DNA of 36,113 nt, from assembly GCA_030611385.1 (NCBI GenBank), contig JAUWPV010000016.1, forward strand, positions 1-36,113. Reading direction: 5' to 3'. Below are positions 13,022-16,712 of the stretch, one piece after another. Origin of the DNA: Bacillota bacterium. GTDB taxonomy: Bacteria > Bacillota > Dethiobacteria > DTU022. The notes beneath the pieces are model-generated. The model did not search any database. It was not told where the DNA came from and saw nothing but the letters and a program-made list of their open reading frames with translations. A program made the translations under genes and the position numbers. Each line of letters starts with the position of its first letter. The first letter of the stretch is position 1.

Positions 13022-13906
13022 TTAGCGGTAACCAAGGCGATGCAGTTCATCTTCACGGTTGCGCCAGTCTCGCTTAACTTTTACCCTTAAATCGAGAAAA
13101 ATATGCTGCCCGAATAGCGCTTCGAGCTCCTGTCTGGTCTTGATGCCGACATCTTTCAGCAGTAAACCACCCCGGCCGACAATAATGCCGACCTGTGATT
13201 TACGTTCTACAAATATTTCAGCGCGAATATCGAGTAGATTGCCGTTTTCTCTCGGTTTCATCTCCTCAATAACAACGGCTATTGAAAAAGGAATTTCCTG
13301 CCGGGTCAGAGCTATTATTTTTTCACGAATTATCTCGGCAGCAATAAAACGCTCAGGCTGATCGGTAATCATATCGGGAGGGTAAAACTGCGGCCCCTCC
13401 GGAAGATGTTCTACCACTGCTTTAACAAAAGGATTCAGATCGATCTTCTTTAAGGCTGACAGGGCAAATTGAGTTTCAAAAGACGATAGTTTTCTGTAGA
13501 GTTCACTGTTGGCAGCCAGTTTTTCCGGGGAGATAAGATCAATTTTATTCAGAATCAAAAATTGAGGGCTTCTTACTGAATGCAGGATTTCTGCAATATA
13601 GCGATCACCCGGACCCGGCGTCTCGTTTGCTTCAACAAGAAAACAAATCAGGTCGACCTCCTGCATAGTCGTCCTCGCAATCTGGACCATGGATGCCCCG
13701 AGCAGATGTTTCGGTTTATGCAGTCCGGGTGTATCGATAAAGATGATCTGTGATTCCGGTCTTGTTAAAATAGCCCGGATTTGATTCCTGGTGGTCTGGG
13801 GGCGATCGGAAATAATAGCCACCTTTTCACCGACAAGAGCATTAAGCAGGGTCGATTTGCCAACATTCGGCCTGCCGATTAGAGCAATGAAACCGGAACG
13901 GTGCAT
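13022..13906 (-). CDS. era: GTPase Era
   Basis: Essential GTPase that binds 16S rRNA near its 3' end and helps mature the 30S subunit. The 294-residue protein shows G1 GRPNVGKS (11-18), G3 DTPG (58-61), G4 NKID (120-123) and a C-terminal KH RNA-binding domain (VGIIVGRGG around residue 240). It lies 13 bases after the cytidine deaminase fusion gene and 30 bases before recO, and ybeY, another rRNA-processing gene, is in the same run. The ribosome binding site is AAAGGA. Confidence 0.98.
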   Translation of the reverse strand: MHRSGFIALIGRPNVGKSTLLNALVGEKVAIISDRPQTTRNQIRAILTRPESQIIFIDTPGLHKPKHLLGASMVQIARTTMQEVDLICFLVEANETPGPGDRYIAEILHSVRSPQFLILNKIDLISPEKLAANSELYRKLSSFETQFALSALKKIDLNPFVKAVVEHLPEGPQFYPPDMITDQPERFIAAEIIREKIIALTRQEIPFSIAVVIEEMKPRENGNLLDIRAEIFVERKSQVGIIVGRGGLLLKDVGIKTRQELEALFGQHIFLDLRVKVKRDWRNREDELHRLGYR

Positions 13907-13919
13907 AATAATCCTTTCT

Positions 13920-14744
13920 TTACTGCGGCATTACAGTCTTTATGTCAAGTACCGGGGTGCCGTTGATTAAATCGAGTCCCCTGACGGTGAGAATGTTTTT
14001 TCTGATTTCAACCAGTTCAACAGTTGACTGGGCCATGGCGTTAGGCCTTAAGGGCGCACGGCAGGCAAAAACACCGTAAACTTCGTTGCCTCTGCCGCTA
14101 CGTTTATCTTTTAGAGTATACCCCTGGGCCTGGTGCAAATAAGAAATCACATTAATCTTTTTTTCCTCATTAAGGCGGTAGAGCCCTTCTTTCATTTCGG
14201 GATCAATGAATATCGCCGACAGCTGTTCTTTATAGTTCTCCGGTAGCGACTGTGGTGTCTGGTAATTATTTACAACATGGCCAACCGGATGAAACGAAAC
14301 CGGTACCCGCCACATATCCTCGCTGTGCATAAGCTGATCACTGGTCGGATTATCTGACCATGCGGCAGATCCGAACGGCTGGGGAAGCAGTTCAAGCAGT
14401 TTCATACTAATTATTTTTTCATTTAAATTACCCATAATAACTTCAATGTTTCCAGCCAGTTCCCAAAGCACCTGGCGACAGGCGCCACAGGGGGTTGGCG
14501 GCAGAACGCAGTCCGCAACAACGGCAATACTCTTAAATTTGCGGTAGCCGGCATGAACTGCCGTCCAGATAGCCACTCTTTCGGCGCAAACAGTCATGCC
14601 ATAAGATGCATTCTCGGTATTGCCTCCGGTGATCAGCGCGCCTTCCTCTGTCAGGAGAGCTGCGCCAACCAGAAACCGGGAATAGGGAGCGTAAGCTCTT
14701 AACCGGGCAGCTCGAGCTGATGCAAGAAGAGTCTCGGTTTTCAT
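13920..14744 (-). CDS. cdd: Cytidine deaminase fused to TrmO (TsaA/YaeB-like) tRNA methyltransferase domain
   Basis: One continuous frame encodes two unrelated domains. Numbering from the TTG one codon upstream, residues 1-125 are a cytidine deaminase with the zinc/catalytic motif CAE (54-56) and PCGAC (C87, C90); this part hydrolyses cytidine to uridine in pyrimidine salvage. Residues 146-275 match the TrmO family, which uses S-adenosylmethionine to N6-methylate t6A37 in tRNA: SFHPVGHVVN at the start, GVFACRAPLRPN (225-236) and INGTPVLDIK (261-270) near the end. The usual PIG after RPN is AMA here. The ATG at 14744 is preferred because GAGGTG lies five bases upstream. Stand-alone cdd next to era is usual in Bacillota; the fused tail is not. 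Confidence 0.9.
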   Translation of the reverse strand: MKTETLLASARAARLRAYAPYSRFLVGAALLTEEGALITGGNTENASYGMTVCAERVAIWTAVHAGYRKFKSIAVVADCVLPPTPCGACRQVLWELAGNIEVIMGNLNEKIISMKLLELLPQPFGSAAWSDNPTSDQLMHSEDMWRVPVSFHPVGHVVNNYQTPQSLPENYKEQLSAIFIDPEMKEGLYRLNEEKKINVISYLHQAQGYTLKDKRSGRGNEVYGVFACRAPLRPNAMAQSTVELVEIRKNILTVRGLDLINGTPVLDIKTVMPQ

Positions 14745-14762
14745 CAATACACCTCAATTGGT

Positions 14763-15818
14763 TTAATCAATGTCAACGTAAGCCGGCAATTTAATAAAAC
14801 CGGAATGGTCAATCTCAAAAACCAGTCCGCGTCTTGTTTCCAGTTCATAAAGAATAATATTTAAACCGCTGATTAAAAGATCTGGGTCGCCGACGGCCTG
14901 TATGATCACAGGATTGGTCAGGATCTGTCGGTAATTCACCATGATCAATGGGCCACTGCAGCGAATGGAGCTCGTTGCCGTCAGCCTTTGGTCTCCGACG
15001 CTGATTCCCCGTGCTCCGGCACTAGACAACTCGTTGACAATGTCTCTGATATCAGCATCATGGGCCAGGGAGACGCTGCCCTGTGGTTCTTCAGCGTCAA
15101 AGACTGATAGAGTTATCCCGGGACCGACCATTTCAGCCAGACCGCTTTTGACTCTCAATTCATGCAATACTAAGAGCATCGCATTAAGGTCTTCGTTAAG
15201 GAAACGCATTTGTTCCTCAACTGTTTTTGGCATAATCAGTTTAGCTACTCCATCGGCTACTTCTATATCAATATTCTGATTGCCGTGATTGAGATCCATA
15301 GAAAATATATTTTCGATCCGTTGAACAGTATTCGATTCAAGATACTGATCGGGGTAAATGCTGATCTGCCCATCGGCAATACGGATGAATAGATGCGTTT
15401 TATCAACAGCTTCCTTGACCCTGCTGTCATTGTTGACCGCGATTAGCACCTTCTCTTTAAGCCTGGCATCGGCTTCTTCGAAAATTATTTCCTGTGCCTG
15501 ACGGCCCTGGTTAAGGATGACCTGGATCAGCTCATCGCTGCCGACAGCAAAATCCACCGCATAGTTATAAGCGGCAAGCGCATCACGAACTGATGCTAGG
15601 TCATAAACACCAAGATCAGTTGCCAACCGGTGATTATAATCAGAAAGGTCGCGGGCCAGCTCCTGTTTATAAACCAATATTGAATCTTCGCCTGAAAAAC
15701 GATCAGCTGCCAGCAGATAGCCGAAAGCGATCAGGACTGTATTGATAATCAAAATAACCAGGATAATCAGCTGGATCTTATCTTTTACATATAGCCGACT
15801 TTTAGACTGCGCAGGCAT
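14763..15818 (-). CDS. Membrane-anchored DUF881-domain protein
   Basis: A 351-residue protein with one N-terminal membrane segment (about residues 15-38), so mostly outside the cytoplasm. The region at about 40-205 is not recognised. Residues about 215-345 match DUF881 (the YlxW/YlxX family): GPGITLSV, an aspartate-containing turn, DIVNELSSAGARGISVGDQRL and VNYRQILTNPVIIQAVGD. DUF881 proteins are usually found near division and sporulation genes, and their role is unclear. Here it lies between dgkA and the deaminase fusion, where B. subtilis has no such gene. GGAGG stands 12 bases before the ATG, a rather long spacing. Confidence 0.75.
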   Translation of the reverse strand: MPAQSKSRLYVKDKIQLIILVILIINTVLIAFGYLLAADRFSGEDSILVYKQELARDLSDYNHRLATDLGVYDLASVRDALAAYNYAVDFAVGSDELIQVILNQGRQAQEIIFEEADARLKEKVLIAVNNDSRVKEAVDKTHLFIRIADGQISIYPDQYLESNTVQRIENIFSMDLNHGNQNIDIEVADGVAKLIMPKTVEEQMRFLNEDLNAMLLVLHELRVKSGLAEMVGPGITLSVFDAEEPQGSVSLAHDADIRDIVNELSSAGARGISVGDQRLTATSSIRCSGPLIMVNYRQILTNPVIIQAVGDPDLLISGLNIILYELETRRGLVFEIDHSGFIKLPAYVDID

Positions 15819-15865: not shown

Positions 15866-16240
15866 TCAGGCGAATAACAACTCTTTGAGAAACTGCCAGA
15901 GCGGTGGACCAAGCACAGCGACTCCGACAATTACAGCATAAACAGAAGTGAGTAAAACTGCACTGGCTGCAACATCCTTGGCGGTTTGGGCAATATGGTT
16001 ACGTTCTCTCGTATAGAGATCTATAGTCTTCTCCAACGCAGTATTAAAAGCCTCCGCAACAAGCACTGACGCTATAGCTGTCAGTAGAAACAACATTCCA
16101 TTTAAAGAGATCTGCAGGAAAAACCCGGCAATGAAAACAACAGAACCAACCAGGGCATGAATTACCATATTGCGCTGGGTTTCAAAACAAAACTTCAAAC
16201 CAATGCAGGCATTTCTTAAACTGCGCAAAACACTAAGCAT
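15866..16240 (-). CDS. dgkA: Diacylglycerol/undecaprenol kinase DgkA
   Basis: Small integral membrane kinase. In Gram-positives this family mainly phosphorylates undecaprenol to recycle the cell-wall lipid carrier. Three hydrophobic segments are visible, with the active-site motif EAFNTALEKTIDL and AKDVAASAVL. The ATG at 16240 is preferred, giving 124 residues, because GGAGG lies 8 bases upstream. An earlier ATG at 16255 has no ribosome binding site. The start overlaps the ybeY stop by 8 bases. dgkA after ybeY is the conserved order. Confidence 0.95.
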   Translation of the reverse strand: MLSVLRSLRNACIGLKFCFETQRNMVIHALVGSVVFIAGFFLQISLNGMLFLLTAIASVLVAEAFNTALEKTIDLYTRERNHIAQTAKDVAASAVLLTSVYAVIVGVAVLGPPLWQFLKELLFA

Positions 16241-16712
16241 TGATTTCTCCTCCATCTAAAGTCTGATCATACTTTTCCATTATTACGCGCTCTTTTGCCT
16301 GCATCAATTTGGTATCATTTTCCCCACTATGGCTAAACCCGAGAAGATGCAACATGCCATGCACCGTCAGGAAAGTTACTTCCCGCACCAGGCTTTGTTC
16401 AACTTCTTTCGCCTGATCGCGGGCCCGTTCAACAGATATATAGATATCGCCAACCGCAAACTCTTTTTCACCACCGGGAAACTGATCAGCTGGTTCGAGG
16501 TAACTGAATGAAAGCACGTCAGTGGGAGTATTTCGGTCCCTGTATTTTGAGTTCAGACTCTGTAATAAGGAATTATCAGCAAAGATCACACCGATTTCGC
16601 CTCCACCAAAATTATAGTCTGCCAGGAGTTGATCAATTATTCCTGTTAATCGGACGGTAAAAGTTTCCGGAAAAGAGAAATCGCTGCTCAGGTTTTTTAG
16701 ATAGACACTCAT
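16233..16712 (-). CDS. ybeY: Endoribonuclease YbeY
   Basis: Zinc-dependent single-strand endoribonuclease involved in 16S rRNA 3'-end maturation and ribosome quality control. The 159-residue protein contains HGMLHLLGFSH, giving the three metal-binding histidines H118, H122 and H128, and a conserved TDVLSFSY segment at 64-71. The start overlaps the pgpH stop by four bases (ATGA). Length is normal. Confidence 0.97.
   Translation of the reverse strand: MSVYLKNLSSDFSFPETFTVRLTGIIDQLLADYNFGGGEIGVIFADNSLLQSLNSKYRDRNTPTDVLSFSYLEPADQFPGGEKEFAVGDIYISVERARDQAKEVEQSLVREVTFLTVHGMLHLLGFSHSGENDTKLMQAKERVIMEKYDQTLDGGEINA

Follow-up and report, generated by a model that had tools for sequence, protein, structure and literature searches.

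Escherichia coli TrmO (YaeB), a tRNA m6t6A37 methyltransferase, contacts AdoMet through Gln25, Arg92, Asp125 and Lys136 and requires its C-terminal DPRxxY domain for tRNA recognition (PMC4132733, Kimura et al. 2014). The equivalent residues in AF0241, a single-domain class VIII methyltransferase solved with AdoMet (2nv4), are Gln22, R82, D111 and K122; the glutamine (Gln22/Gln25) holds the AdoMet amino group, and R92, D125 and K136 are the residues tested in the E. coli enzyme (PMC4132733). The question of what class VIII methyltransferases act on was raised earlier for archaeal homologues (PMC4132733). Cytidine deaminases are represented here by two homotetrameric enzymes, Bacillus subtilis Cdd (1jtk) and Bacillus anthracis Cdd-2 (2d30), which carry zinc and catalytic residues at C53, E55, C86 and C89 and occupy the operon position before era.

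In the 36,113-nucleotide stretch of bacterial DNA analysed here (the window), domains of both kinds are encoded by one gene. This cdd-trmO-like fusion gene (13920..14744, on the minus strand, as are all window features given below) starts with an ATG at 14744, encodes 274 residues followed by a stop, and contains no internal stop; an alternative TTG start lies one codon upstream at 14747, so that the product has 274–275 residues. A preliminary description had proposed that a cytidine deaminase and a TrmO-type domain are joined in frame within about 274 residues, and the uninterrupted reading frame and matches to both domain profiles bear this out. The cytidine deaminase domain (residues 1–127, 14364..14744) is delimited by profile matches, residue conservation and a fold match to Bacillus cytidine deaminases. 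It is followed by a fast-evolving linker (residues 128–147, 14304..14363) that contains W145 near its end, and then by a TrmO_N-type (class VIII) methyltransferase domain (residues 148–274, 13923..14303) that is supported by a Pfam match from around residue 150, a fold match to 2nv4 and its position in a tree. The key motifs of both halves are intact, as had been stated: CAE (residues 53–55), PCGAC (residues 85–89), GVFACRAPLRPN and GTPVLDIK were all found. The fusion is not known as a characterised enzyme, and no description of a Cdd–TrmO-like architecture was found in the literature searched.

The same architecture recurs among close relatives. A search of 98 genomes of the class recovered the two-domain protein in 38 of the 43 genomes from the window's family, which is a group of uncultured anaerobic bacteria. 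The gene is full length in 34 of these and is cut by contig ends, yet still crosses the junction, in the other 4; the family proteins are 54–74% identical to that of the window. No fusion was found in the other families of the class (0 of 55 genomes), where Cdd stands alone. That an assembly or sequencing artefact joined two genes is a reading with no supporting point and almost no probability, given that the same junction occurs in 38 genomes without stops or frameshifts. Sequencing error at the junction, a concern of the preliminary description, is excluded by the 37 further family genomes that cross it. The fusion is a true single ORF with two domains, common to the whole family.

Five family genomes lack the fusion; contig ends explain two of these cases and loss another two. 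Contig breaks by era account for its absence from G022 and G031, and G006, which is 69% complete and lacks a convincing match to era, is not complete enough for a verdict. In G060 the gene has been lost and about 340 bp separate DUF881 and era. In G032 a fossil of roughly 36 residues of the fusion C terminus lies between the same two genes (L157:2496-2654), and a separate, more distant Cdd, which could be contamination, is present elsewhere in the genome. Family-wide presence combined with two real losses indicates that the fusion gene is ancestral to the family and dispensable, and its loss in G060 and G032 shows that it is not essential.

In a phylum sample of 398 genomes, the full-length architecture was confined to the window's family among the matches listed. 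The view outside Bacillota comes from a pattern scan covering about 85,000 species, which returned at least 4 fusion records (L032–L035), all from MAGs that carry the label Syntrophomonadaceae or Bacillota. What emerges is a stable pairing of two enzymes, not described before, that is tied to one bacterial family. Extended matches in L045 and L068 were rejected as fusions, both being standalone Cdd. Viral origin or spread was likewise rejected, as three viral-contig matches are single-domain as far as they were read and only 30–31% identical.

The deaminase half resembles its Bacillus counterparts closely. It passes the curated cut-off for homotetrameric cytidine deaminase (TIGR01354, 128.4 bits against 113.65) and matches PF00383 over residues ~1–127 with 61.8 bits. 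Among solved structures it is closest to Bacillus cytidine deaminases (E 5e-30); 1jtk and 2d30 share its fold, about 48% identity and the numbering of the zinc and catalytic residues. In an AlphaFold model of the fusion, this half matches 2d30 with a TMt of 0.94. Among 28 full-length fusions, the zinc, catalytic and substrate residues N42, E44, C53, E55, R56, C86 and C89 and the C-A-E motif are invariant, F24 and F124 are near-invariant, and position A88 of PCGAC is either A or S. This half is thus predicted to be an ordinary zinc-dependent, homotetrameric cytidine/deoxycytidine deaminase of pyrimidine salvage. Unlike the Bacillus Cdds, however, it carries a C-terminal methyltransferase domain.

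The second half had been described as a tRNA t6A methyltransferase, an assignment that several observations count against. It exceeds the cut-off of PF01980 (TrmO_N; 82.4 bits against 26.8, residues ~150–274) but fails the TrmO equivalog TIGR00104, with 80.9 bits against a cut-off of 93.25. Its best solved relatives are AF0241 and TrmO proteins (E 2e-14), of which AF0241 is the closest solved structure by sequence. The AlphaFold model has a mean pLDDT of 76.8, is poor at residues 137–150 (the linker) and 205–234, and carries no information on assembly. Modelling of the pair, as proposed earlier, recovers both folds: the methyltransferase half has the beta-barrel fold and matches AF0241 with AdoMet (2nv4; E 8.1e-8, TMt 0.65).

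Three of the four AdoMet-contact residues are kept in the fusions. R229 (14058..14060), equivalent to AF0241 R82 and E. coli R92, which contacts the AdoMet carboxylate, is present in 34 of 35 fusions. D258 (13971..13973; AF0241 D111, E. coli D125) and K269 (13938..13940; AF0241 K122, E. coli K136), the latter reaching the AdoMet of the partner subunit, are found in all 35. The glutamine is missing. Residues 169–171 (E-N-Y, 14232..14240), of which Y171 is invariant, form a loop two residues shorter than that of TrmO, which has P-R-Q-G here; N, R, H or G stands in place of the glutamine in 34 of the 35 fusions, although the alignment of this column is uncertain in the shortened loop. By contrast, the glutamine is present in each of five DPRxxY TrmOs sampled, and AF0241 has a PRQGR loop. 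The DPRxxY domain is itself absent from every fusion, as it is from AF0241, and the window ORF ends about five residues after the DIK motif.

Thus, the fused domain shares with E. coli TrmO the TrmO_N fold and the equivalents of R92, D125 and K136, but differs in the absence of the DPRxxY domain and of a Gln25 equivalent, and in belonging to a different clade. Fused methyltransferase domains form one clade (support 100/99), which indicates a single origin. This clade groups with the NIK and SUB2 sets, and a branch of 100/99 separates the combined fused, NIK and SUB2 grouping, named after the tree was seen, from DPRxxY TrmO, AF0241 and the main FmdE-linked clade. The branch that leads to the fused half is long, and joining this half with true TrmO in one clade is disfavoured, though not formally rejected (p-AU 0.061). 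The RPN-AMA variant, once considered a possible subfamily marker, varies inside the fused clade (RPNAIA, RPNSIA, RPNPIS and RPNPVS, among others) and does not serve as one.

Could this half still be a genuine TrmO that forms m6t6A37 in tRNA-Thr, while the deaminase takes over from the DPRxxY domain by binding tRNA or serving as a scaffold? Such a role would fit the Pfam match, the three retained AdoMet residues, the presence of Era and YbeY, which act on RNA, as operon neighbours, and the finding of no other TrmO-domain gene in the window's genome. Any TrmO-domain gene, however, occurs in just 37 of 133 good-quality Bacillota genomes, which implies that m6t6A is not generally required. Given also the score below TIGR00104, the lack of the domain that E. 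coli TrmO needs, the absent glutamine and the grouping away from DPRxxY TrmO, we consider genuine TrmO function unlikely.

The nearest relatives of the fused domain belong to a separate Bacillota subfamily whose members mostly adjoin Ni/Co/Fe transport genes or adjoin obg-yhbY. Those beside the transport genes (L192, L198 and L206–L214) share the shortened, glutamine-less loop but, unlike the fusion, occur in a metal-transport context and are never fused to cytidine deaminase in our sample. Neighbours in the NIK set include CbiM, DUF4198, FecCD, NikR, a LarC-type Ni insertion protein and FmdE. Specifically, the TrmO-like gene adjoins CbiM and a DUF4198 protein in L206, FecCD transporters in L208, a periplasmic binding protein in L213, and NikR with a LarC-type nickel insertion protein in L214. 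Some TrmO-like domains are fused to FmdE (L208:1498-2577, L211, L212 and L214:799-1890), that of L208 also with a zinc finger. These FmdE fusions, lying beside FecCD, NikR and LarC-type genes, suggest a metal-handling role for proteins annotated as 'TrmO'. In L215 (192-2261), a TrmO-like gene lies between the ribosome assembly genes obg and yhbY. The contexts are leads towards metal handling or ribosome assembly and do not amount to a function. The analysis shows that the name 'TrmO' has been given to a Bacillota subfamily which does not pass as TrmO and mostly resides beside metal-transport or ribosome-assembly genes.

The missing glutamine could mean that methyl transfer is weak or does not occur. 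Loss of this AdoMet contact and the loop shortened by two residues are what might be seen if the methyltransferase half were dead, kept just for oligomerisation or stability of the deaminase. But the Arg, Asp and Lys of the AdoMet site hardly vary, and both domains are under equal purifying selection: when all pairs among 28 full-length genes are compared, the median pN/pS is 0.32 in each of the two domains, against 0.77 in the linker. A non-catalytic second half is therefore quite improbable. Both halves appear competent, as first proposed, in view of their motifs, the zinc and catalytic residues of the one and the three (of four) AdoMet contacts kept by the other.

The fusion occupies the usual Bacillota cdd place in an operon with the gene order phoH, pgpH-type HD gene, ybeY, dgkA, DUF881, fusion, era and recO. 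Downstream, era (13022..13906) follows after a gap of 13 bp and is present in 31 of 34 fusion loci. Upstream, a DUF881 gene (14763..15818) is separated by 15 bp and is preceded by dgkA (15866..16255, prokaryotic diacylglycerol kinase) and ybeY (16233..16712, endoribonuclease). A DUF881 gene upstream of cdd is seen in the window's family and also in sister families of the class. Sister families were considered as the source of a neighbouring trmO for the fusion, but this origin was rejected: three of their genomes (L151–L153) show DUF881-cdd-era without trmO. A trmO-like gene was probably inserted between cdd and era in the family ancestor and then fused to cdd.

Other Bacillota carry Cdd joined to other proteins of the same operon. 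One frame encodes a Pfam-supported YbeY-Cdd fusion (L167:1593-2588) and another a DgkA-Cdd fusion, judged by reading its sequence (L168:590-1537). Unlike the window's fusion, these have a usual operon neighbour as partner rather than a methyltransferase. Such independent fusions suggest that Cdd of this operon tends to become joined to neighbours of unrelated function, and thus fusion by itself is no proof of a shared pathway.

The two halves are expected, from the gene sequences, to be made as one polypeptide, since the region of the junction has no conserved start codon; 9 of 28 fusion genes lack any ATG, GTG or TTG at alignment columns 129–156. On this ground we rejected the idea that the second half is translated by itself from a start within the gene. 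The explanation we favour, and judge to be probable, is a bifunctional protein in which both activities are inferred from sequence: ordinary cytidine salvage, and a class VIII methyltransferase distinct from true TrmO. The methyltransferase half would be an AdoMet-dependent, dimer-forming enzyme of the TrmO fold, drawn from the Bacillota subfamily that stands apart from true TrmO, and might act on RNA or on a metal-related small molecule or protein. The fusion would provide co-expression and probably co-assembly, with two methyltransferase dimers on each deaminase tetramer, and deamination and methylation need not be chemically coupled. Of the earlier interpretation, the in-frame two-domain protein stands, as a genuine feature shared by relatives; the TrmO identity and the coupled chemistry find no support.

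Direct coupling, in which the same nucleoside or RNA is deaminated and methylated with channelling between the sites, would be in keeping with the fact that both halves have long been kept in cis and with W145, invariant in 28 of 28 aligned fusions just before the methyltransferase domain. The linker is nonetheless long and unconstrained, Cdd is fused elsewhere to functionally unrelated operon neighbours, and in all its features the deaminase half looks like an enzyme of free nucleosides. The earlier idea of tRNA cytidine deamination coupled to methylation has no support. We regard direct coupling as very unlikely. A looser arrangement would be a two-step nucleoside- or RNA-modifying enzyme whose deaminase and class VIII methyltransferase, the latter of new specificity, work in one pathway. 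It is improbable; if true, it would give the non-TrmO branch of class VIII methyltransferases its first function. Because the fusion tags a class VIII methyltransferase to an assayable partner, the substrate question becomes directly testable.
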